Shown in pieces: positions 2,423 to 58,553 of a DNA stretch of 64,000 bases. The translations under genes and the position numbers were made by a program. A model generated the notes under the pieces. It had not been told where the DNA came from. It saw only the letters and a list, made by a program, of their open reading frames with translations, and made no database searches. Location of the stretch: positions 31,597,501 to 31,661,500 of the forward strand of contig NC_068557.1 of NCBI RefSeq assembly GCF_022201045.2, written 5' to 3'. Source of the DNA: Citrus sinensis (lineage: Eukaryota > Streptophyta > Magnoliopsida > Sapindales > Rutaceae). Each line of letters begins with the position of its first letter. The first letter of the stretch is position 1.

Positions 2423-5340
2423 ATGCAATCTCTTCAATCCTCTTCTCTCCACGCGTCTCCACTAAACCCACTTCGCAGCAAATCCAACTTCAATCTCCCC
2501 AACAATGCGAGACCGACCGCAAGGAGAGTCTCCTTCATCACTGCTTCTTCAACCAAATCCGCTCCCAAGCGGGAGAAGGACCCCAAGAAGCGCGTGGTGA
2601 TCACGGGAATGGGCTTGGTCTCCGTGTTTGGCAATGATGTCGATGCGTATTATAACAAGTTGTTGGATGGTGAAAGTGGAATCACTATGATTGACCGGTT
2701 CGATGCTAGTAAGTTCCCGACCCGGTTCGGCGGCCAGATCCGGGGATTTAGTGCCGAGGGTTATATTGATGGCAAGAATGATCGCAGACTTGATGATTGT
2801 TTGAGGTACTGCATTGTTGCTGGCAAGAAGGCTCTCGAAGATGCGGATCTCGGTGCCGATATTTCTAAGAAGGTCAGTTAAACTACTTCGTATTTGATGG
2901 AATAGTGATTTTGCATTTTGCTTTGTGATTATCGATCCATGGCCATGTTTGGTGATTTTTAATCACTGGCTGTCAAGTATCAATATAAGCGCATGGTTGG
3001 GTGCAAAACATGAGCAGCCAATAAAGCGAGTAACAATGAGCGTTTATTAAATACTTTTTGCTGCCATGCTTTTAAAATTAAGCAGAAAGTTACCCTTAGA
3101 AAATTTTCATTTGCTTGATTTGTGCTGGAAGTAATTCATGCATGTATGAATTCTTTGGATGGCTTATATGTTTGTTTTTCTATTATTTGTTCAAACTAAT
3201 CAGTGGTCGTCTATCGAATTAGGAATTCAACACCATTTTAACGACCATATTGAAACTCGCTGCATTCTGGTGTGACTTCTCAGTAATTGAGGATATTGAG
3301 GTCTCCCAGCTGAATATGCCCAAAACGCATTAGTTTCCAACTCCTCTAACCCCTCGCCCTTTCTTTGAGTAAATTTTGACCAGCATTTTATATACTCATT
3401 GCAGATTGATAAGGAACGGGCTGGGGTTCTTGTGGGAACAGGAATGGGTGGTCTTACAGTCTTTTCTGATGGAGTCCAGGCTCTAATAGAAAAAGGTCAT
3501 AGAAAAATAACCCCGTTCTTCATTCCGTATGCTATAACAAACATGGGTTCTGCTTTGCTTGCAATTGACCTTGGCTTCATGGGTCCAAATTATTCAATTT
3601 CAACTGCCTGTGCAACCTCCAATTATTGCTTTTATGCTGCCGCCAATCACATCCGTCGAGGAGAGGCTGATTTGATGCTTGCTGGTGGAACTGAAGCAGC
3701 CATTATTCCTATTGGATTGGGTGGTTTTGTTGCATGTAGAGCATTGTCTCAGAGAAATGATGACCCACAAACTGCTTCTAGGCCATGGGACAAAGATCGG
3801 GATGGCTTTGTCATGGGAGAAGGTGCTGGAGTATTGGTAAGCTCGCATTGTTACCACACTAAGGGTAGAGTGTATACATATTTGTTCTTGTACTTCTGCT
3901 TAGAGTTTGTGGGTCAATTACATTTTTCATTCTCGGCAGAGAAGCTGTTTGTGAGCTGCTTGTTGACATATGCATATATTTTTTTTGACAGGTGATGGAG
4001 AGCTTGGAACATGCAATGAAACGAGGTGCACCGATCATAGCAGAGTACTTAGGGGGTGCTGTTAATTGTGATGCTTATCATATGACTGACCCCAGAGCTG
4101 ATGGACTTGGAGTGTCTTCATGCATTGAGAGCAGCCTTGAAGATGCTGGTGTGTCACCTGAGGAGGTGAACCCTTTTTTTCTATAAACCAGTCTTGTTGC
4201 ATGGTGTTGTTTGGCATAACATTGTCTTAGTGTGCAGTATCAGGGTAAGATGCATTTGAGTCTTATTATCTGATTTGAACTTAATTCGGCTGATTACATA
4301 TTCAGGCAAAAATAAGAAAAAAGAAATAATTAGGCAAAAGAACACTCGATTATAATTGTGAAGTAGTTTGTAAGCACACATTGGTTTGATAACCTGAAGA
4401 AGTGTTGGGCCCTATGGACCATAAGCGATGTTGCGGTGGAATGCTTTTGTGCTTTGGCTCTCCCACTAACACTGATCTTTGTTAGTGAACATGTTTGTAT
4501 CATCTTAAGTTGTGTTAATCATTTCCAAGCCATAAAGCAGCAAATTGAACCACTCTTTTTCAGGTCAACTACATAAATGCTCACGCAACTTCCACTTTAG
4601 CTGGTGACCTGGCTGAGATAAATGCTATTAAAAAGGTGTTCAAGAACACCACAGGGATCAAAATCAATGCCACGAAGGTATTCACTCTTTCTTTAGCACT
4701 TGAGCAGGCTAAGGTGTTACAATACTCTCTTGTCATCGGCTGGCTTCTCTTTCATCTGACTAGTTTTCATTATATTTCAGTCTATGATAGGGCACTGCCT
4801 TGGTGCAGCTGGGGGTTTGGAAGCAATTGCCACTGTCAAGGCAATAACCACGGGATGGCTGCATCCTTCCATTAATCAATTTGTGAGTGTTACCTTTTTG
4901 TGCACACCTTTTTTTGCTTTGGGCAATTTACATAATTTGCTTTATGTAGTACAAACCCTAAAATTTGCAGTTATTAATTCTTCAATGCAATGAGGATAAT
5001 TTCTATTTTTAGTAAATCAGAACAATATTTCAAACATTTTACATCATTTTTTTTATCTAAAACATTTCCCACCATCATAATGTTTGATATTTTCTTTTCC
5101 ACGAATTCAGAACCCTGAACCTTCAGTTGAGTTCGACACTGTCGCCAACAAAAAACAGCAGCATGAAGTGAATGTTGGTAAGTTGCTGGAACATTTTAAT
5201 CCCATGTCACTCTCATTTTCAATTTCTTTTTTGCTGGCATCCAGGATTACTCACTTAGCTAATCTATTTCAGCCATCTCTAATTCATTTGGATTTGGAGG
5301 GCACAACTCTGTCGTTGCATTTTCTGCATTCAAACCATGA
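2423..5340 (+). CDS. KAS1: 3-oxoacyl-ACP synthase I (KAS I), plastid
   Basis: KAS I condenses malonyl-ACP with C4-C14 acyl-ACPs in plastid fatty acid elongation. Seven exons read in phase: 2423-2872, 3405-3836, 3992-4165, 4564-4677, 4781-4882, 5111-5177 and 5273-5340. They give a 468-aa protein, close to the ~470 aa usual for plant KAS I. A Ser/Thr-rich N-terminus of about 45 residues looks like a chloroplast transit peptide and is followed by the thiolase-fold core starting KKRVVITGMGLVS. The nucleophile is Cys219 (STACATSN). The catalytic histidines are His359 (NAHAT) and His395 (GHCLGAAGG), with Lys390 in INATK. The glycine-rich end FGFGGHNSVVAF is intact. No frameshift is seen. MCM3 follows in the same direction, and this KAS1-MCM3 adjacency also exists in Arabidopsis (At5g46290/At5g46280, from memory). 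KAS I rather than KAS II is inferred from overall similarity. Confidence 0.95.
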
Positions 5341-6554
5341 ATCATCCAGCCTGTTCATAAGTCTAGAAGATCTGGTCATTAATTGGCCAAGGAGCCGCAT
5401 CATCCTGTCTATTGAGTTGCTGCATATTTATTTTGAGGCTTTTGTAACAGTTATGTAATAATTGTAAGTTGGATTTTAGTTCAGGATAATGAGCCATTTT
5501 CTCCTTTCAACCATTGGATTTATGAGGCTAGTTGAGAGGGCATGAAATTTTGTCAGATTTTTAATTATGCTGTGGACAGAAGAATGAGCCGCCGAGGTCT
5601 AGCATTAATATCACTCGTGGCTCTGTTCTTCATTGTTTGTTATGTGGGAATTTCAGATCTTAGCTGATGGGCTATGGTTTATTTAAGTTAACCCGCATAT
5701 TTGGATTGCGGACACGGATATCTTTATTTTAATATTAATTTTTTACAATTATTTTCAATATAAATAAAAAAGAAAAAAATAGCCGCATTGCCCTAGTGCG
5801 TAATTCACATTTTCCTGATTTGAGACCTCATAGCCGTGGGCCGCCAACCATTTCCTCTTCTCTTCATCAAAGCAAACCATCGTCTTCATCGCTTTAACCG
5901 CCGTTTCCTCTGTTCTGTGTTCATCATCATTATCTGCCGCTATGTTTCTCTTCTTTGCGTTGCTGCAACTCCCAGCTCCGCTACCAGTTGAACCTTGGAC
6001 ACCACCTTAGCGATTGTGCCTGTGTTCATCATCATCATCTAGTCATATTAAATCTAACTGTTTTTTCTCTCAAAAAAAAAAAATGTAACTGTTTTTAAGT
6101 TCTATATTTCAAAATCTTGACTATGGTTAGGGATGGCAAAATACCGACTTGGGCTTTCACTTATTTTTCAATTTTTTTTAAATAAGTTCTCTCCTATAAT
6201 AGAAAAGCATTTAATTAGAAATTAAAAAAAAAATCAGCCCCCCTTAAAAAATATTGATAGCTTTGCCACAATGCCACTGATCGTTTTCATTTCACCTTAT
6301 AGCAAGTAGAGTAGCATACAAAGGGGAGGAGGGTAAAACTCAAGGACCTAGACGGAACTACATGAAAAGCTAAGCAAAGGCGAGTAACTACGGAAATTAA
6401 TGACGCAAACTAAAAAAAAATGGGTTAATAAGATAATTTGCGCAAGTCAAGTATCATTACTGACAAAAATAAATAAAAAAGAAGAGATAATTCTGACCCA
6501 AAATAAAAAGCCCACTTAATATTGGGCTCATTTATGGGGATTGGTCCAACAATT
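5341..6554. other. KAS1-MCM3 intergenic region
   Basis: The first part is the presumed KAS1 3' UTR. The rest is AT-rich with homopolymer runs and no recognised gene or element. A short GC-richer, CT-rich segment around 5820-6010 was read in all frames without a convincing product. Confidence 0.5.
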
Positions 6555-6567
6555 GTCCCGCCAAAAC
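6555..6567. promoter_or_regulatory. E2F-type site 1 upstream of MCM3
   Basis: The bases GTCCCGCCAAAAC contain the core CCCGCCAAAA, the reverse of the plant E2F consensus TTTSSCGC family. The site lies about 160 bp before the MCM3 start codon. Function is inferred from the motif and from known E2F control of MCM genes. Confidence 0.6.
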
Positions 6568-6583
6568 AGGGCCGTCTTCATCA

Positions 6584-6597
6584 TTTTCCCGCCAAAA
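6584..6597. promoter_or_regulatory. E2F-type site 2 upstream of MCM3
   Basis: The bases TTTTCCCGCCAAAA form a near-ideal, two-sided E2F site about 130 bp before the MCM3 ATG and 29 bp from site 1. Paired sites like this are typical of G1/S-induced replication genes. Confidence 0.75.
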
Positions 6598-6723
6598 CCA
6601 CAGCCACGGCTGAAAGTAAAGGTACACATTGGCCCCCTCGCCGTCATTCTCTCGCTAATCTAACAATTTTATTTACTCTCCACCCCCAGCTCCGAAGTCA
6701 GAACCATATCCGGTAGTTACAAA

Positions 6724-11452
<4,729 letters not shown>

Positions 11453-26323: not shown

Positions 26324-26572
26324 CAAATGAAGAGCATCCACGCATTGCAGGAGAGAGGAAAAGTTGTTGGAACTCACCCGATACAAGGTCAATTTACACT
26401 GGGTTGTTACATACAGAGTCTGTAACGTAGCCTTGTCCTTTATAGAGGCCATAAACCGTTGCGTATTACACTTGCCTCTTCCTTGACTCTTGTACCTATA
26501 ATTATTATAAAATAAGACTTTACCTATCTGATTATTACCTAATCAGAAACTTATTGGCAACAAGCAATAATA

Positions 26573-27722
26573 GTTAATGGTCATAGTTTCATGTTTATTG
26601 GTCCATTAAATAAATAATTTTCAGGGTTGTAAGTTAATGATCTCATGTTTCATGTTTATTATCCTAAGTTTCAAGTTTATTAATTAAATGATTTTCATGG
26701 TTGCAAGTTAATGGTTTCATGTATCATGTTTATTGCCCTAAGTTTCAAGTTCATACTTTTCAAATTTAATGGTTTAGATATCAAGTTAATGGTCATGGTT
26801 TCATGTTTATTGATCCATTAAATAAATGATTTTCAGGGTTACAAGTTAATAATCTCATGTTTCATGTTTATTGCCCCAAGTTTCAAGTTCATTAATTAAA
26901 TAATTTTCATGGTTGCAAGTTAATGGTCTCATGTATCATGTTTATTGTCCTAAGTTTCAAGTTCACACTTTTCAAGTTTAATAGTTTATATATCAAGTTA
27001 ATGGTCATGGTTTCATGTTTATTGGTCCATTAAATAAATGATTTTCAGGGTTGCAAGTTAATGATCTCATGTTTCATGTTTATTGCCCTAAGTTTCAACT
27101 TCATTAATTAAATGATTTTCATGGTTGCAAGTTAATGGTCTCATGTATCATGTTTATTGCCCTAAGTTTCAAGTTTAATAAGTTAGATATCAAGTTAATG
27201 GTCATGGTTTCATGTTTATTGGTCCATTAAATAAATGATTTTCAGAGTTGCAAGTTAATGATCTCATGTTTCATGTTTATTACCCTAAGTTTCAAATTCA
27301 TTAATTAAATGATTTTCATGGTTGCAAGTTAATGGTCTCATGTATCATGTTTATTGCCCTAAGTTTCAAGTTCACACTTTTCAAGTTTAATGGTTTAGAT
27401 ATCAAGTTAATGGTCATGATTTCATGTTTATTGATCCATTATTAAATGATTTTCATGATTGCAAGTTAATGATCTCATGTTTCATGTTTATTGCCCTAAG
27501 TTTCAAGTTTATTAATTAAATGATTTTCATGGTTTCAAATTAATGATAACATATTTTATGTCTATTGCCCTAAATTTCAAGTTTCATTGGTTTCATGTTT
27601 AATGGCTGAGATATCAAGTTAATGGTCATTATTTTATTTTTATTAGTCCATTAATTAAATAATTTTCATGGTTGTAAGTTAATAATGACATGTTTCATGT
27701 TTATTGACCTAAATTCCACGTT
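26573..27722. repeat. 212-bp higher-order tandem array
   Basis: The landmark GGTCATRGTTTCATGTTTAT or a close variant starts at 26579, 26791, 27003, 27200, 27412 and 27624, giving periods of 212, 212, 197, 212 and 212. The 197-bp copy lacks a 15-bp TTCACACTTTTCAAG segment. Each unit holds three related ~70-bp monomers sharing TCATGTTTATTG and CAAGTTAAT. There are about 5.4 copies. It is non-coding. Confidence 0.92.
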
Positions 27723-29883
27723 CCTTTAGTTTCAAAACAAAACCCATCACAGTACTTACGAGAAACAAAGTCTTCCAAAACTCAAGACCAGTCTTTGGAG
27801 GCTCCGCAATTCTGGTAGTCCATGAAATCAACATCATCAACGACCCACAAGGCAGGGACAGAGTTGAAGTCCACCAAGGATAGGGAAGATCAGCAACCCC
27901 GCCGTTGATCGTTGCCGAAGAAGGAGATCAGCCCGTGCTTGTGCCGCCGTTGATCGTTGCCTAGGAACTCCTTCAGTCGCCGCCGTTAATCATTGCCGAC
28001 TTGCGGCGCTGTTGATGGCCGTGGTGAGGCGTTTGGCGTGTGAGTGAAGCGGGAGACAGTGGAGATGGAGACGTGAGCTGAGGGTGAGCTGTGATCGCGA
28101 GGTGAGGAGTGAGTGGTGAGGACTTTTTGTTTGTTTCATTTACCGATTTTACAGGTTCCCTTTCCTTGTAAATTTTTTATTATTTAATACTAAAATGAAT
28201 CTCAGCCATTGGATCCACTCCACTTAATCCAACGGTAATTTTTCATGCATGTATCCGATATATGCAGGTATTGTAGCATCAGCCGATGAAAGTGCATGAA
28301 GCGAGCAGGTGATGAAGGGACGTTTCAGGCGGTTTCGACTTTCGTGCATTATTACTAACAACAATAGTTAAGAAAGATTAATTATTGTGGGGTGTGTGCT
28401 TGTGTATGTATATATTAGTGAAACATTTATTATAAACATAAATTGATAGTATACATATATATTATCATGAGACACTAAGGAACGAGTTAGGTCGAGATTT
28501 GCCAAAAATTAAAAAGAAAAAAAAATTATAACATTTATATTACCAGGCAAGTTCTAATAGCATTAATATTACACAAGCTAAAGTCATAGTCATCCTCATC
28601 TATACGGGCATAAACATATACTCGATTAAAAATTACAGTTTTCTTATGTGGCTTTTAAAATGAATTATATTATATGGTTGGTTATACAAGCATATATGTT
28701 CAGCTCCATTAACATGCATACAATATTAATTATGAGGGGTAAGACATCTCTCCTCACCTCACAAGTTGGAGAAATTTTAAAATACATCAGAAGTACTATA
28801 TCAATCATACAACAAGTAAATGATGTTGTGACATGTGTGCATTTATTTTGAAAAATCATCATGCTAGTGGTGGTTATATTAAATTCAATTACACATGTAT
28901 GTATACATCAATTGGTTGCAATATATAAGATGTATTCCAGAATTTCTCCACAAGTTGGCATACCACCTAAAATATCTAATTTGCATTATCATCCTTCCAT
29001 ATGTTAGTAGGCGATTGGCCTGCTTAATTATTTGAAATAATTCTAGAAAACCTTATCCTATTTATACATACATACGTACATATACACACACACACTACAC
29101 TCTGTGAGGGGGGACGATTTATCATATCTATGAGTGCAAAAAGAGAAATCAGAACTAATTGCGTACTAATTAGTTGTATGTATAAAACCAAAGAGATAAT
29201 TTGAAGTTTTGAACAAATGGAACTTGCCACGCTATTCATAGAGTTAGCCCAGCAATTATTTCTTGCCACGTCACAATGGGAGCTAAATAAGTTCACACAC
29301 CTGATTTGCTCTTTAGCCATGATGGTTTCTCAAGCTACTTTGCTAAGATAGCTAAATGGCCAATCAGAGCAGGCGGCTTGCGTACTTCTCCGTCCCATTG
29401 ACTCCACATGTTTGTCTTTTAAAACATGAGAGATTATCATGTTTCCAAAGACAATTTAATAACTACCAGCATTATAGATTTTAATGAGTTAATTAAGACA
29501 AGGATTATCATATTGGACATGCCTCACATGATCAGGGGTCGCTTGCCTAGCTTTTTAATAGCTCCAACGTTTATTCGCCCACGCTTCAATATTGTCAAAT
29601 AAATTGAATGAAGAATGTTTGTCTCGTCAAATAACGGGACAGCCACATCAAATCCGGTCTGGGGTCATCAAGAATCTTCACAAACTACGAGATTTCCAAG
29701 TGGCAGGAGCATGCACCGTGCGAACAGATCAAGCAGCCACTTCAATTGTTAAAATCATTGAGAATAAAAAGTTATCAGATGAGTTGAAACCAGAAACCTG
29801 ATAAAAAATTTTGACGAGGACGGTTTGTGCTGAAACTAATAAAATACAAGACAACAAACTAAAACAACTTCAGAGAAGTGGTA
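27723..29883. other. Intergenic region with a GC-rich segment
   Basis: Bases 27880-28120 are unusually GC-rich, with repeated GCCGTTGATCGTTGCC-like text and a GTGAG-rich tail; they may belong to the same mobile element as the tandem array to the left. The rest is AT-rich. A 69-codon ORF at 29592-29801 contains ACTVRTDQAATSIVKIIENK, which I do not recognise. No RNA gene is seen. Confidence 0.5.
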
Positions 29884-49719: not shown

Positions 49720-50824
49720 CATTATCATCATCGTCGTCATTAATAATATGCTGAGTTTTTTACTTATATCAATTTTAACAGTATGGCCTTAACAATTAAG
49801 TAGATATTGTCTGCTTTGTGTACATAGTCTGTTACGATTTTGTTATCCAACTTTATAACCCAAAACTCATAAGCTTAGTTAGGAGAGTCCATGACTTACA
49901 AATCAGTAAAGGAACTCACTTGCTAACATATATGTCTATTTAGTTAGGAGACCTCATAAGATATTCATCCAGAAATTAGGTCACAAATCAACTATAATAT
50001 CAATTATAACAACCCAAGCCCAATAGTCAAATAAATATTGCATGTTTTGGGCATATAGCCCATCACAGTTTTATTATTGGGCTTGCAACCCAAAACGCGT
50101 TTGTTTAGTTTAAAAAACCCAGAATTTATAAATTAATCCATAAATTCACTCGCTAGAGATATGAGATATTACATCAATAATATGACAATTCGTTGATGGA
50201 ATCCCTTCTCTTTCAATGATGCCCCCACTTTGGCGATGTGGATGCTCCCATTAAGAACTAAGAAACATCTATGAATTATACAATCCTAGGGCGGCTCTAA
50301 TTGCTTATCTCTTTAATTTTTTAGGTTTATCCTTCACAATTCCATTGTTTTCCTTATCATGGACGATTTACGTACTCTTCATTGAGTATTTGGGAATGGT
50401 ATATTTATGCTCAAAATATTTTTTAGGTAAATGAGAAATTGTTACTCAAAGCACAATTATAGAGTTGAAAAAATTAAAAGAAAATACAATTGTCCCACAA
50501 GGGAAAGAAAACTGAAGCATGAAACGTCTATATATGGCTACTCATGTTCATATGGGTAAGAATATGAGTATAGAAGCTCTCTCTTGTGCGAGCTTGATTC
50601 TTGAGCTGATTGGAATTAAAAGCAACAGACAAACTAATTGTAATTTTAAACTTTTAAATTAAACTTTTAACTAGCGAAGAAGACCATTTGAGAATATAAA
50701 TTGACTTGCTCCATTTCTTTTTTTAAAGAAAAAAAATAACTTATTCCCTGCATGTTCATTAGCGAACACAAATAACCGTACAAGACATACAAAACCATGC
50801 AAAAACCTACAATAATAATAGTAT
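48258..50824. other. Intergenic region with diffuse repeats
   Basis: It contains the promoter of the RPL18A-like gene, an (ATT)n tract at about 49690-49720, and moderately complex DNA at 49080-49680 that looks like old repeat sequence. Around 49800-50160 two diverged copies of one ~220-bp segment occur (GCATATAGCCCATCACAG versus GTACATAGTCTGTTACGA). No gene is recognised. Confidence 0.45.
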
Positions 50825-51059
50825 ATAAAAAATGAGTCATCATATAGTACCGCGCTGTATGTAATACAGCTGCTTCAACAGTGAAAAAAAAACTTGAACA
50901 ACCGGTATTTTACCGGTTGTTCATCTAATAATTTTTAAAAAATTTATTTTTAATGTGAAAAAAATAAGGAAATTTATAAAAAATTAATATTAAAAAGATT
51001 TGAGTGAGAAAAATATTTTTAATTTAAAAAAAAGTTAAAAAAAGAGTAAAATAATCATG

Positions 51060-53230
51060 TTCCAATTTTTTTGGTTAAATATCAATATATTAGGTGGACG
51101 TTTCAAATTAATTTCACATGTCCCTAATTTTCGTTAAACTTTCTCAATAATTGGTTTATTTGTTTCCACTTCTCAATCCACTAGTTTCATGTATAATATT
51201 CCTACTAAATTCGTTAAATACAAATTTTTTAGGTTAGATTCCAAGTAAATTCATTTCTCGTTAAATAAGTTCCTAAATTTGGTTACACTTTCTCCCTTTT
51301 TGGTTTATATGTTTCAACTATTATTTCACAAATTTTACGTTCAATATTCCAATTTGCTTGGTAAGATTTCATTTATTTGGGTTAAATACCGAAATAATTT
51401 TTTTTTGTTAAACTAGTTCCCAATTTTGGTTAAGCTTTTTCATATTTAGGTTCACATGTTTCAAATTATTAGTCCACTAGTTTTGTGTTAGGTATTCCTA
51501 CTAAGTTCGTTCAATACCAATATTTTGGGTTAGATTCTAAGTAATTTTCATTTCCCGTTAGATGAGTTCCTAATTTTCGTTAGATTTTCTCGCTTATTGG
51601 TTCAAATATTTCATCTAATTACTCCTCTAGTTTTGCGTTGAATATTCCCATTAACTTGGACAGATTCCAATTATTTGGGTTAAGTGCCGAATTTATTTTT
51701 CGTAATTTTATTTTTGGTTAAATAAGTCCCTAATTTTGGTTATATTTTCTCCCTTGTGGGGTTATATGTTTCAATTATAATTTCATTAGTTTTGTGTTCA
51801 ATATTCCAATTAACTTGGTAATATTTCATTTATTTGGGTTAAATACCGAAATAATTTTTTTTGTTAAATTAGTTCCCAATTTTGGTTAAGCTTTTTAATA
51901 TTTAGGTTCACATGTTTCAAATTATTAGTCCACTAGTTTTGTGTTAGGTATCCCTACTAAGTTCGATCAATACCAATATTTTGGGTTAGATTCCAAGTAA
52001 TTTTCATTTCCCGTTGGATGAGTTTCTAATTTTCGTTAAATTTTCTCGCTTATTGGTTCAAATGTTTCATCTAATTATTCCTCTAGTTTTGTGTTGAATA
52101 TTCCCATTAACTTAGATAGATTCCAATTATTTGGGTTAAGCACCGAATTTATTTTTCGTAATTTTATTTTTGGTTACGTATGTTCCTAATTTTGGTTACA
52201 CTTTCTTCCTTGTGGGTTTATATGTTTCAATTATTATTCCACTAGTTTTGTGTTCAATATTCCAATTAATTTGATAAGATTTCATTTATTTGGGTTAAAT
52301 ACCGAAATAATTTTTTTTGTTAAATTAGTTCCAAATTTTGGTTAAGCTTTTTAATATTTAGGTTCACATGTTTCAAATTATTAGTCCACTAGTTTTGTGT
52401 TAGGTATTCCTACTAAGTTCGTTCAATACCAATATTTTGGGTTAGATTCCAAGTAATTTTCATTTCCCGTTGGATGAGTTCCTAATTTTCATTAGATTTT
52501 CTCGCTTATTGGTTCAAATGTTTCATCTAATTATTCCTCTAGTTTTGTGTTGAATATTCCCATTAACTTGAACAGATTCCAATTATTTGGGTTAAGTACC
52601 GAATTTATTTTTCGTAATTTTATTTTTGGTTAAATAAGTCCCTAATTTTGGTTATATTTTCTCCCTTGTGGGGTTATATGTTTCAATTATAATTTCACTA
52701 GTTTTGTGTTCAATATTCCAATTAACTTGGTAAGATTTCATTTATTTGGATTAAATACCGAAATAATTTTTTTTTGTTAAATTAGTTCCCAAATTTGCTT
52801 AAGCTTTTTCATATTTAGGTTCATATGTTTCAAATTATTAGTCCACTAGTTTTATGTTAGATATTCCTACTAAGTTCGTTCAATACCAATATTTTGGGTT
52901 AGATTCCAAGTAATTTTCATTTCCCGTTGGATACGTTCCTAATTTTCGTTAGATTTTCTTGCTTATTGGTTCAAATATTTCATCTAATTATTCCTCTAAT
53001 TTTGTGTTGAATATTCTCATTAACTTGGACAAATTCCAATTATTTGGGTTAAGTACCGAATTTATTTTTCGTAATTTTATTTTTGGTTAAGTAGGTTCCT
53101 AATTTGGGTTATATTTTCTCATATTTACTTTTATATGTTTCAACTATTATTTCACTAATTTTGCGTTCAATATTCCAATTAATTTGGTGAAATTTCAGTT
53201 ATTTATGTTAAATATCAAAATTACTTGTAT
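51060..53230. repeat. 456-bp higher-order tandem array inside the Mutator-like element
   Basis: The landmark GGTTCACATGTTTCAAATTA or a close variant recurs at 51449, 51905, 52361 and 52818, giving periods of 456, 456 and 457. Each unit is made of three diverged monomers of roughly 150, 160 and 146 bp, each with a GTTYAWATGTTTCA start and a CTAGTTTTGTGTT core. Partial monomers extend the array on both sides. No ORF is present. Confidence 0.92.
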
Positions 53231-56200
53231 TACCGGAAACAATAATTTTAATAAGTTGAATTATGTTTGAACCCTTACTATTTTATAAAATATCAACTTA
53301 CCATATAATACTAAAAAACATTTATTGTAACCCTTAATCTTTTCCAATATTTTGGGTCCTTAACCTAATTCCCTTTTATATATATCATGAGATCTCTTGA
53401 ACTTGATTGTATATATACTTGAGCTTTTAGTCTCTATACATATTTATTCTCATTTTATCATTTTAGTTGATTATTTTTAGTTATTGTTAAAATAAATTAA
53501 TGCATTTATTTTCATCTCTCTCTTTACTTTTTAAAATAATTTCTTTAATTTTTCAAAACTTCGACAGTAAATAAAAAATAACATGTAAGAGCGCATGCAA
53601 TTGCTATGCTTCTCCAAAAAATTATTTTTAAAAATTATGATGGCATAAGTTATAAAAAATATTTAAGCTAACAAAACTTGAAACTTTCTTAATCTATTTG
53701 TGTTGAATTTTCTTTTTTCTTTTTTTGGGATCAATTGACTTCAGGAGATTTCTTGAACTTGAAATTATTTATACTTAACTTTTGATCTTTATAAATGTTA
53801 TGCCCATTTTATAATTCAATTAATTATATTTATTTATCTTTAAACTAAAATAAATCAAGAATTAAGATTTTTTTAATTCAAATTAAATTTTTACCACTGT
53901 TTTCTTTTCAAATTATTTTTCTTAATTTCTTATTACTTCAACCAAAAATTTATGCTATTAATTATAAATATTAATATATTATACTTGTATTATTATCACT
54001 ATTATTATTTTTTTTACTCTTACTAAAATTTTTATTATTACTATCTTGCCCCATGAGATTTGTTAACAATTTTTTTTTAATAATGAGTATCCTTCTTTTT
54101 CGTTTTTAAGTATGGATATAATTTTTAATTTATAAAATAAGTTCTTAAATTTTCAAGACTTAACTAAAATAATTTTTAAGAGTTTATTATGACTAATATG
54201 GTTATGAACATTTATTACTATAGTAGCAACACTTTATACCATACCATTTCATATTTATTACTATACCAAAATTTGTTTATTTATTTTATGATTATCCCAT
54301 GAACTGTGAAAATTAACTTTTATATTAAAATTGAAAAATTTCTAAATTTGTATTACATTGATCCAATTCTACTAAGCCGCAATTTATTTATCTTTAATTA
54401 ATGCTTTAAACACAGTAAACGCAATTCAAATTCAACAATATTTTGTAAAATAAAAAAATAAAAAAAATCAATGCAATCAAGAAAGAAGAAAATATATTAA
54501 ACATTAATTTTTCTTCCTAAATTAAATATTGAAAGGATATTTTTCTCTAATCGGTAAATTCAACACCGCAATTTAACAATAATGTCGACTTTTATTTTTA
54601 AACTATTTTTTTATTACTCCGAATTGCAATACATTTTTATAGGTCATAAAAATTAATAACCAATAATGAAAGTATCTTTATTTATTCAATATCAATATTC
54701 ATTACTTCAGGAGATATGATCATAAATTTGATTATCCCTTGTACAAACAAAATAAGTTAATCATTTTTCACGACTTAAACAAAAATGATCTTAGTAGCTA
54801 AAATTATTTTTTAAAAGCTTAATATATTTGGATGGATATTCCAACTAATATGATGTTACAACATAACACTATGGTATAAGAAACAACATTCACTGATACG
54901 ATTTTGGTCTGCACTTAATAATGGAGTTTCACATTAATAATTTCACTCAAATTCCAAGAGTACAATTGAACCTTTAGATATACTAAAAAGTAAAAAAAAA
55001 TACACAAAAATAAAAAAAAAACACAAAAATCTCTCATTTCAACTTTTCAATGCTTGCTTGCTCTTTGAAGATGGAGAAATCATAGAATACCTGTAGAATA
55101 AGAACTCAATTTATAGATTAAAAGAAGTTAAAGAGAATTGCTCAATTGGAGGATGAATTAAACAAAAATTAAGTTCATTTACAACCGAATTAGATGGTAG
55201 CCAATTCTTGTTCATTACTCAACTATATAGCATTAGTCCATTCAAAAACTTATAATTTTTAACAATATTTTTTTTAATTGAGTATCATTCTCGTTTAAAT
55301 ATCCCTATAATTTTCCATTTACCAAAATAAGTTATTCAATTTTTAGGACTTAACTAGAAATACAATTATTTAGGACTCAACTAAAAGAGTTCTTCAATTT
55401 TTATCATGACTAATATGGCATTAAAAAAATATAACCCAGCAGTTATAACATAAGATTATAATTTTGGCGTATTTTTATTATTTTTTAAATGGTTTGTTGG
55501 CATTTGTTTGTAAATGAAATTACAATGCCCTATTAATTTATCCAGTGCATAAAAATATTAATCAAATAAAAACTTCCATTCATCCAAATAGGTATATGAG
55601 AACTTTTTACAAGCTTGCGGGAAAATAATTTTAAAAACTTTTAGCATCAAATAAAACCAATACAAAACTAAATCAATTTACAATTTTCAAAAGCTAGATT
55701 TCAGATGCTGTTAGATCATAAGGGTCTCTGCATGTATAAAAGAAAACCAAATGATATTAGAAAATAATTCTGCGAAGCAATAAACAATATTCAAAATTTC
55801 AAATGCTGATACATAGGACCGTAATGGGCGTAGGAATGAAGACGGCGGCAACTGCTCGCTTGTTGGCTTGTGAGGGTTTGACGTGAGTGAGCGTCTTTGA
55901 TGGTTTAAGGAGAGCGGCTAGGGTTTCCAAAGAAATGTCATAATGTGAGTATTTATATTATTAGTAGAAATTGGAAAAAAAATATGAAAGTTTTCAAATT
56001 AATAAAAAAGATAATAAAAGTTTGATGAATAATAAAACTTCCATAGATAGATTTGTTGTAACCATTCAAAATCTCAAAATTCATTTTTGTAATTTGGTAA
56101 ATAATATTTTCATTTTTACCCGCCAAGATAAAACTTTTTTATGTGAAAATTTTACATAATACATATATATATGTATGTATGTATGTATATATATGTATAT

Positions 56201-57840
56201 ATTTTGTTGATATAAAATTAATTATTTACAACTATATTAATAATTTAATATAGATGAGATACACTACTATGTAAATATATTAATAATCAAATTATGGCTA
56301 TCAGTTAATTTAGTTGTAAATCATTTGAGTTCAAAACAAAACAGTTGAGGTTTGAATCTATGGGCGCAAATTTAGTTGTTATTAAGCTATACTGAAAAAA
56401 AATCATATTCAAATTCAATTCCTTTTACCACTAGAATAAAATTATATATATATAATTTAGTTAGAAGTACAACGAAAACATTTTTCATTGCGCATAAGAT
56501 AAGATTATAACAAGTTCAACATGCACAAATAAAAATAGATTCATAAGATTATATTTCTCTCCAATAGAATAGAGAGTTTCAAAAGTAAATTTAGTCAAAC
56601 ATACTACTTAATATGAAAATGGATTTATAATTTTTATATTTTTATATGGTTTTATATAATTTTATTATTTTTAGTTGTTATATAAATTAACTTAATTTTA
56701 GAAAAATATGGATATAAATGTAAGATTGAACAATTTTTGTGATAATTGCGCATCATTCATTATACCAAAATACAAATCATGTAACTATCTAGTGAGTGCA
56801 GTATTACTCAAATAATTTGATTTAATTTAGAAATATAATTGCCATGCTTAAATTATATAATTGTAAGTACAATATAATATAACATTATTCAATATTAGTT
56901 GCATTTAAATTGTAATTATCCATGTCATGTACCATTATGAATTTGGTTAATGTTTAACAAAAAAATTATTATAACAAAAAAGATTAAATAAAGTAATTAA
57001 TTTTACATAAGTTTGTATGAATTAATTTGCATAAAAGATTGTTTGTGAGTTTTATTTAAAAGTATCAAATATTAGATGCTTTAAATTTGTGGTATATATA
57101 AAACATATTAATGTTAGCCTCTAATAATAACAACAACAATATTTGAGGGGTAATTACATGTTTGGAATCATAATAATTCGATAGTTGGATGAACATTACC
57201 CTCATTTTAGTAGGTAGAGATTTAAATCCCTATATGTGTATCATGAGATAGTAAGATTGATTTCTTCCAAATATTTAGAAATAAATTGATTTCATTATAT
57301 GTTTAGATATTTAGATATTTAGATTGTAATGCAATTAAAGATGATAAAATTGTTTTGATAGTTTCTTAAGCAAAATATCATTACATTTATAACATAATAA
57401 TAAAAATAGCTTAATTAATATATAATTTATTTTAATTTATTATATTTAAATATTATTCTCATTAGTACATAAGTTGCGTTTTTTAAAGCAAAATATCATT
57501 TAATTTATAACATAATATTAAAAAAATAATATAATTATATTTTTAAATATAGTAGCCTAATTATTTAATTATATTTTTTCATTAGTACATAGTTTAAATA
57601 TATTAACTATATTTTCCATAAATTAAAAGAAAAAAGAAATATTTTCATTTTTTAAAGTTGAGGGGGTCTTTGATAGTTTAATAATTTGGAATTGATTTTC
57701 TTAATATTTACCTAAAATGAGGGATCTGTGTGATAGTTACCTTTTAATTTTGGCCTCTTTAACGAATTAAAACGATGGTACCAGTGGCCGGTTACGTGCT
57801 GAATTAAAAAAATAGAAAAAAGCAGCTGTACGAGATACAG
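53231..57840. other. AT-rich interior of the Mutator-like element
   Basis: It is very AT-rich with many stop codons. Exceptions are a GC-richer patch at 55830-55930 (GACGGCGGCAACTGCTCGC), an (ATGT)n run near 56165-56200, and a ~118-bp tandem duplication starting near 57368 and 57486. No gene is recognised. Confidence 0.55.
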
Positions 57841-57862
57841 CGGCTGTATTTTAAGCGGACCC

Positions 57863-58025
57863 ATAAAAAATTGGATACGATTAGGTAGATTCGGTATATA
57901 ATTAATTAACTAGCTATACCGTACAAGACATGCAAAAACCTAAAACAATAATAGTAAATAAAAAATTGGATACGATTAGGTAGGTTCAGTATATAATTAA
58001 TTAACCAGCTAGATAAAATATAGGG
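57863..58025. repeat. ~95-bp direct duplication flanking the Mutator-like element
   Basis: The text ATAAAAAATTGGATACGATT then GGTAG is found at 57863 and about 57958, and ACCGTACAAGACATGCAAAA is found at about 57916. That second block also lies left of the element at about 50777. So the target site held two tandem copies of a ~95-bp unit and the element landed in the first. Confidence 0.8.
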
Positions 58026-58553
58026 AAAAGGCGAGGGTTAAGAATCCAAAATCATATCCCGCACATTCCAATCGAATCCCGAGCATGGAATTGACATATT
58101 TTGGTATAAATAATTAAAATCAATTAAAAAAAATAAATCAATCGTTTTCGCCAATCCCGTACACATGGAACTGACCCTCCGTCCACAAACAATCAATTTT
58201 CGTGCGGCACAAGCGACAGCTATTTTGATCGTCTATTTTTAAATAGACAGCAGCCTCCGTGTTCGTCTTCCGCGTCAAACGTTCCTCCCTGGACGGTCAC
58301 CAAATTCAATTAGTTAAGTACATTTACCGAATGTTGACAAAAAGTCCACGACGGGATCAGATATAAAACTAAAATATATCCCATTGGAACGAAACTTCTT
58401 TCCACTTAGATATCGCAGAATCATATGGCAACCAATTTTTGACCTTTGGTCCGTGGGGCAACTGTTGCGCCATACAACACGTTTTATCGCAAGTAGCCGT
58501 TGGATTGAAATTAAAGTGATCTGACGGTCAAAAACTTCACACGTTGTAATTAG

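Follow-up and report, generated by a model that had tools for sequence, protein, structure and literature searches.

In the VANDAL elements of Arabidopsis, Mutator-like elements (MULEs) with motif-rich non-coding tandem repeats, short motifs are bound by VANC proteins; these motifs make up tandem repeats that change quickly and lie in non-coding parts of the proteins' own elements, and the binding leads to loss of DNA methylation (PMC5735166, PMC10398659). VANC genes that bear Ulp1 (Kaonashi) reportedly act on their own kind (PMC13317346). The Kaonashi (KI-) and other Ulp1-bearing MULEs of grapevine, melon and rice have degenerate or missing terminal inverted repeats (TIRs) (PMC2528002, PMC13317346), and Ulp1 genes also occur in Jittery-like MULE families of grapevine (PMC2528002). 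The clementine element CitMule measures about 6.9 kb, shows perfect 9-bp duplications at three of four copies and short degenerate TIRs, and is predicted to encode a transposase with FAR1, MULE and SWIM domains; its authors placed it near Jittery (PMC4334395). Here we describe a 7029-bp element at positions 50834–57862 of a 64,000-nucleotide stretch of Citrus sinensis contig NC_068557.1 (the whole stretch is called the window). It is very probably a non-autonomous Mutator-like DNA transposon, mobilised in trans by a transposase of a related lineage, and it carries a one-sided, higher-order tandem array in its left part. A sequence-only reading of the window had proposed a non-autonomous, array-bearing Mutator element, and the copies and the transposase-bearing relative described below support it.

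The boundaries given by that reading hold, with the exact 9-bp duplication ATAAAAAAT on both sides and an empty copy of the target close by (Table 1). The element inserted into a ~95-bp tandem duplication (50740–58030), so that a copy of the empty site persists in the right flank, and the two flanks, joined with a single ATAAAAAAT, align straight over the junction to this duplicate. The uninterrupted copy thus identifies the 9 bp as a true target duplication and the 7 kb as having been inserted as a unit. The element opens with the letters GAGTCATC and closes with GCGGACCC (termini GAGTC...GGACCC). Inverted ends, also claimed from the letters, are present over 47 bp, with 34 of 45 positions identical in the BLAST-aligned part, a score attained by one of 20,000 random pairs of 47-bp segments of the window in which one of each pair was reverse-complemented; they are short and imperfect, and the element is therefore not a long-TIR MULE. 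MULEs make target duplications of 8–11 bp, usually 9, and have TIRs, short and degenerate ones in the non-TIR MULEs; the element agrees with both. The earlier view that the element lacks a transposase also stands: its longest stop-to-stop frame is 68 aa, and tblastn (E 1e-3) with the transposase of the relative L045 (loci carry L numbers, contigs C numbers) found no match in the whole window. No Ulp1 (PF02902) match was found in the window copy.

The array, described beforehand as satellite-like, is built of 456-bp units and was reported by TRF as 456 bp × 4.3 copies at 51245–53221. The three monomers of a unit, each of ~150 bp, are 70–80% alike, and the motifs GGTTA, TTTTGGTT and TATTCC are strand-biased. 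A monomer profile, partly trained on the window array itself, returned 14 matches in a scan of both strands, all on the plus strand at 51115–53219; with E allowed up to 10, neither strand of the 64-kb window matched anywhere else. Monomer matches start ~275–300 bp from the left end and the first full unit at ~410 bp (element position 412 in the window).

Copies of the element were sought in the 299.7-Mb assembly (11 contigs). Searches with the first 201 bp and the last 200 bp gave 40 matches each (40 of 65 and 40 of 62 candidates scored), the array search scored 40 of 93 candidates and another genome search 150 of 899, so that the genome counts are for the most part minimum numbers. The sequence-only reading had proposed a search for further copies with 9-bp duplications, and copies with these ends, this array and such duplications are present. 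Both ends were located in 13 copies including the window element; eight have exact 9-bp duplications, all different (Table 1), and two (L027 and L043) have duplications with one mismatch. Nine loci whose right end is absent from the fetched stretch (L029, L033, L034, L035, L037, L039, L040, L045 and L047) lie outside this count. Sequence identity marks some copies as young: between L041 and L043 it is 99.4% over the full length, and the window element differs from its near-twin L025 (contig C7) by 1 mismatch against 283 matches before the array (10 gap columns uncounted) and by 56 mismatches against 4548 matches after it (141 gap columns uncounted).

The array is a regular part of these copies. 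Profile matches fall in the left part only, and on a single strand only, in all 11 two-ended bodies scanned on both strands. A listed array match follows within 3.5 kb downstream in at least 28 of the 40 left ends, 25 of them at a distance of 375–430 bp (positions hand-picked from the array match list), and since L045 and L047, missing from that list, have the array too, at least 30 of the 40 left-end copies carry it. Two-ended copies have between 2 (L028, L038 and L031) and 7 (L025) full units; the window element has 4, three fewer than L025. Between the window and L025, unit identities are 0.978 for pair 1-1, 0.976 for 2-2, 0.974 for each of 3-3, 3-4 and 3-5, and 0.978 for 4-7. With units matching by position, the type-3 units were most simply gained in L025 after its split from the window copy; we infer a gain in L025, not a loss in the window.

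Table 1. Features of the element and its insertion site (window positions), with the exact target duplications of two-ended copies
Feature	Position	Strand	Remark
Left target-site duplication, ATAAAAAAT	50825–50833	.	Read directly
Left terminal inverted repeat, starting GAGTCATCATATAGTACCGCGCTGTATGTAATACAGCTGCTT	50834–50880	+	Aligned across 21 left ends
Subterminal palindrome GAACAACCGGTATTTTACCGGTTGTTC, 27 bp	50896–50922	.	Candidate transposase-binding site
Higher-order tandem array, 456-bp unit of three ~150-bp monomers	51118–53223	+	4 full units plus partial monomers
AT-rich non-coding interior	53224–57662	.	Without transposase or Ulp1 match
Junction at which L026, L027 and L028 hold 2.0–2.4 kb extra, missing from window copy and L025	55805–55806	.	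Aligned blocks stop at element position 4973 and restart at 4972
CCGGTT half-site of the left palindrome, within right end	57788–57793	+	Sequence comparison
Right terminal inverted repeat, finishing GCAGCTGTACGAGATACAGCGGCTGTATTTTAAGCGGACCC	57816–57862	-	Alignment of inverted ends
Right target-site duplication, ATAAAAAAT	57863–57871	.	Read directly
Tandem duplicate of target, uninterrupted (empty) site	about 57900–58030	+	Single ATAAAAAAT at 57958–57966
Exact duplications of two-ended copies			Window ATAAAAAAT; L025 ATATATATG; L028 TTAATAATA; L036 TTAATAAAA; L038 CCATTTAAG; L041 TAGAGTCTA; L042 TAATTAAAG; L044 TTATTTTAT

Beyond what was read from the letters, the array is not specific to non-autonomous copies, as transposase-bearing relatives have an array and an Ulp1-like gene. 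L045 (C3:34547433–34557432) has the window's left end and array, with 69% identity over 2.4 kb, and behind the array a frame in which the FAR1 domain (PF03101) scores 52.7 bits and the MULE transposase domain (PF10551) 100.8 bits; a second, overlapping frame holds a SWIM match below threshold (15.9 bits against a cut-off of 19.6). With its domains split over two frames, the transposase is frame-shifted. The opposite strand carries an Ulp1 protease fragment (PF02902, 21.8 bits, cut-off 20.7). L047 matches L045 in left end and array (91.7%) and carries an Ulp1-like frame scoring 28.9 bits, and yielded no match to the L045 transposase. A genome search with that transposase (98 of 745 candidates scored) found, among those scored, stop-free 859-aa frames of near-equal score and 69–70% identity at C3:18680200, C9:2087535 and C5:27425643. 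At the C5 locus the FAR1 domain opens the frame, and upstream lies an array (L048) with a period of 316 bp and 3.8 copies, with degenerate repeats further out over several kb, which is 99% alike at the C3 and C9 loci (40 of 126 candidates scored). Downstream is a convergent Ulp1-like gene, with PF02902 matches of 38.9 and 23.2 bits in two frames. PF02902 passes its cut-off in L045, L047 and L049, each time on the minus strand, and the transposase is on the plus strand in L045 and beside L049; VANDAL and KI-MULEs have an Ulp1-bearing or VANC-type second gene reverse to the transposase, and a gene of this kind is present in the relatives only.

How far the window-type and L048 arrays resemble each other was assessed with a comparison profile built from nine window-type copies, scanned on the plus strand only for L048 and the controls. 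In L048 it found 18 weak matches. The controls (20 shuffles each of L048 and of the window array, the rest of the window beyond the element, and L046 and L032) had none, and L031, L045 and L047, all outside the training set, matched strongly. The hexamers TATTCC, ATTCCA, TTTTGG, TTTGGT and TTGGTT are over-represented (z >4) in the window, L041, L045 and L048 arrays. Most top hexamers of each array are rare on the opposite strand, and the arrays are T-rich. Nine hexamers have z >4 in both the window and L048, a number that none of the simulated unconstrained arrays, 200 for each of four levels of divergence, reached under a simple null model of uniform substitution and between arrays that share ancestry and T-richness. 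GGTTA consensus sites are kept at 6 of 6 in groups G2–G4 (2.9, 2.2 and 3.8 expected) and at 4 of 6 in G5 (1.6 expected), the group consensuses being based on 34, 10, 17, 8, 4 and 2 units. Taken together, these comparisons suggest that short array motifs are under constraint; shared strand-biased motifs are no proof of function.

A second candidate signal lies outside the array. The palindrome GAACAACCGGTATTTTACCGGTTGTTC differs by 0–3 substitutions among 21 aligned left ends (an alignment that omits L035, whose terminus is missing), by 1 in L045 and 0 in L047, and these two keep it though they are just 69–70% identical to the window over the left 2.4 kb. Its CCGGTT half-site recurs in 10 of 13 right ends, with L025, L036 and L038 lacking it. 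The palindrome is a possible transposase-binding site.

These observations can be joined in one mechanism. On this reading, the window element retains both termini and the left subterminal array of a two-gene MULE of older date. Relatives of that MULE in the genome code for a FAR1+MULE transposase and, on the opposite strand, for an Ulp1-like gene. The lineage transposase would act in trans on the GAGTC...GGACCC ends by cut and paste, perhaps binding at the subterminal ACCGGT palindrome. As transposase-bearing relatives have a similar block, the repeats may well contribute to how the element works and not be mere junk. By analogy with VANC on VANDAL repeats, the array would serve as a cis-acting platform of repeated motifs, TTTTGGTT(A) and TATTCCA, read by an element-encoded and most likely Ulp1-bearing protein that counters host silencing, an idea that we hold tentatively and that falls not far short of an even chance. 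A wider version, in which FAR1/Jittery-type MULEs run a VANDAL/VANC-like and perhaps independent anti-silencing system, with their own Ulp1-bearing protein targeting kilobase arrays upstream of the transposase and non-autonomous copies keeping the array to share protection, strikes us as rather unlikely.

Several results weigh against this picture. The L048 profile matches are individually weak (best E 3.5e-4). GGTTA is kept at only 4 of 6 sites in G5 and at 1 of 6 in L045, close to the 0.5 expected, and though well kept it is not the best-kept 5-mer, ranking 9, 2, 22, 10, 14 and 54 of 92–94 in pairwise alignments. Three of the 13 two-ended copies (L026; L030/L046; L031/L032) have no matching duplication. 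The right end of L045 lies beyond the 10 kb fetched, and no two-ended transposase copy was delimited; the sequence-only reading had proposed looking for an autonomous relative with a MURA-type transposase, and L045 answers to this with its left end, array and FAR1/MULE domains, but not with an intact frame or a reached right end. Finally, the 859-aa loci are not among the 40 scored matches (of 42) to the L045 left end.

The array may instead be a passive by-product, a functionless stretch multiplied by slippage and unequal exchange and carried along at each move, a possibility that we take seriously while leaning against it. The spread of 2–7 full units would follow from it, L025 units 3–6 score equally against the query and three of them are equally close to window unit 3, and L025 contains two or more units that are identical to each other, as slippage would produce; tandem repeats growing inside DNA transposons are also known from Tetris (PMC4079207). 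A passive origin sits less easily with the constant side of the array, seen in at least 30 of the 40 copies with a left end and in transposase-bearing relatives too, or with the nine hexamers that are enriched in the window array and also in the strongly diverged array of L048, a number that no simulated array reached, simple as that model is. An array that binds the transposase, aiding its assembly at the left end, or that drives the transposase gene would account for its place between the left end and that gene in L045 and upstream of it in L048, and the ends of the active MULE Muta1 have short subterminal tandem repeats (PMC5225508). Its restriction to the left part in all 11 two-ended bodies speaks against this reading, as does a unit of 456 bp against 9–15 bp in Muta-type ends (PMC5225508), and gene-less copies that keep the array argue against a promoter role alone; we consider the binding or promoter explanation unlikely.

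That the 7 kb are a chance juxtaposition or a composite of nested repeats, with no single mobile unit, is extremely improbable. The host region is AT-rich, and L030 and L034, 54–66 bp from L048-type arrays, suggest that nested composites do occur, but L025, at another locus and with a 9-bp duplication of its own, has the same ends, the same order and most of the interior, and the uninterrupted target copy stands in the right flank. Chance repeats are likewise rejected, copies at other loci carrying their own duplications. Foldback elements have tandem repeats inside both inverted ends, and that reading is rejected too: in none of the 11 two-ended bodies scanned does the array reach beyond the left part or match on a second strand. 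Miniature inverted-repeat transposable elements (MITEs) are non-coding derivatives usually under about 0.6–0.8 kb, and 7029 bp is too long for one.

Set beside described systems, the preferred reading of a non-autonomous MULE with a possibly functional array finds its closest parallel in VANDAL, where repeats contract, expand and diverge fast between related families, as here (PMC5735166, PMC10398659). Unlike VANDAL, the relatives' transposase here has a FAR1 domain (PF03101), the array has a 456-bp higher-order unit, and anti-silencing is an analogy. The FAR1 domain does not fit a VANDAL-type (VANA) transposase, as VANA is not known to have one. The relatives resemble Kaonashi and other Ulp1-bearing MULEs in an Ulp1-like gene reverse to the transposase (PMC2528002, PMC13317346) and differ in the array, none being described in the parts of those sources consulted ('tandem' occurs 0 times in the main text of PMC2528002). 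CitMule is a citrus MULE of similar size with 9-bp duplications and short TIRs, and its FAR1-type transposase has a counterpart in the relatives here; it differs in that its transposase is predicted in the element itself and, in a comparison by description only, 'tandem' occurs 0 times in the text consulted (PMC4334395). Muta1 of Aedes and Tm1 of Meloidogyne are also of the Mutator superfamily, with tandem repeats near the ends, non-autonomous derivatives and 8–9-bp duplications (PMC5225508, PMC3169594), but their repeats are 9–15 bp long and lie inside both inverted ends in a foldback-like manner, whereas here they are one-sided and of ~150/456 bp. Tetris of Drosophila virilis is apparently non-autonomous and has internal ~220-bp tandem repeats able to become satellite-like arrays; unlike our element it is an animal foldback with the repeats in its TIRs (PMC4079207). 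Hvu_Abermu of barley is similarly a large MULE, 8,176 bp long, with GGG...CCC termini and duplications that are mostly of 9 bp; its TIRs, in contrast, are 138–145 bp, and 'tandem repeat' and 'satellite' occur 0 times in the text consulted (PMC9168764).

Among the matches listed in searches of the open-licence literature, with subscription papers mostly outside it, none was seen to describe a MULE that carries a higher-order satellite-like array on one side, in citrus or elsewhere. Motif-bearing tandem repeats in MULEs are already known from VANDAL, and the one-sided higher-order array is a new variation; the earlier suggestion of a new family is fair for the host within the searches made, and goes too far for motif-bearing tandem-repeat MULEs as such. 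If the proposed role is true, motif-bearing arrays would be a recurrent device of plant Mutator elements and not a peculiarity of Arabidopsis VANDAL. One genome here offers a natural experiment, with near-twins whose arrays hold 4 and 7 units, copies that bear a transposase beside empty ones, and two array lineages that have diverged, and such copies allow direct testing of array length in silencing, mobility and satellite origin.

Further observations concern the interiors of the copies. That the 2.0–2.4 kb extra in L026–L028 is the lost transposase finds no support: three frames tried from this stretch (in L027, L028 and L032) gave no Pfam match, and the L045 transposase has no match there. 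Searched against the host genome (31 of 31 candidates scored), the L026–L028 interior has no clear parent gene, and it shares stretches with at least six further places resembling family members. Pack-MULEs hold a captured host-gene fragment between their ends. L039, one of the loci with no right end in the fetched stretch, has a LOB-domain gene fragment (PF03195, E 5.8e-9; 2365–2712) between two array pieces, which was either captured or brought in by a nested insertion. In L035, a frame downstream of the array (5032–6789) with hAT-like RNase-H and BED zinc-finger domains (PF14372, PF02892) is apparently a nested hAT element. An AT-rich insertion, seen by eye, interrupts the L048 array at ~430–1340 and is probably another mobile element.

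Other loci show family members in close company. At L045 (27–500), another member's right end abuts the left end head to tail with 3 bp between; one member could have inserted beside the other, or the arrangement could be akin to a circle junction. L030 and L034 have near-identical flanks, and L048-type arrays begin 54 and 66 bp, respectively, from their left ends; at C1:10843250–10848828 and C9:13721963–13727538 window-type arrays stand within ~2–3 kb of L048-type arrays; these loci are probably nested composites duplicated whole. A transposase near L030 (C2:20235650) was rejected as part of L030, the matched right end (C2:20238684) coming before it, and probably belongs to something else. 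From L031 to L032 (C1:19957938–19997230), the left and right ends of one subfamily are 39 kb apart, with flanks TCTCTCCTC and CTCTCTCTC that are not an exact duplication; frames in L032 resemble a Gypsy-type polyprotein. A second higher-order array in the window, at 26572–27723 (212-bp unit, 5.5 copies, holding 74-bp monomers), was rejected as kin of the element's array, the monomer profile having no match there on either strand; a frame near it resembles a Copia-type polyprotein. The right-end search also returned at least 15 matches of equal score (142 bits, 79% over ~179 bp), L050 (C2:24946700–24948099) and 14 others; L050 ends in CCCGACCC and is 81% identical to the element's right 1.2 kb, and these matches are perhaps a high-copy, recently active subfamily.

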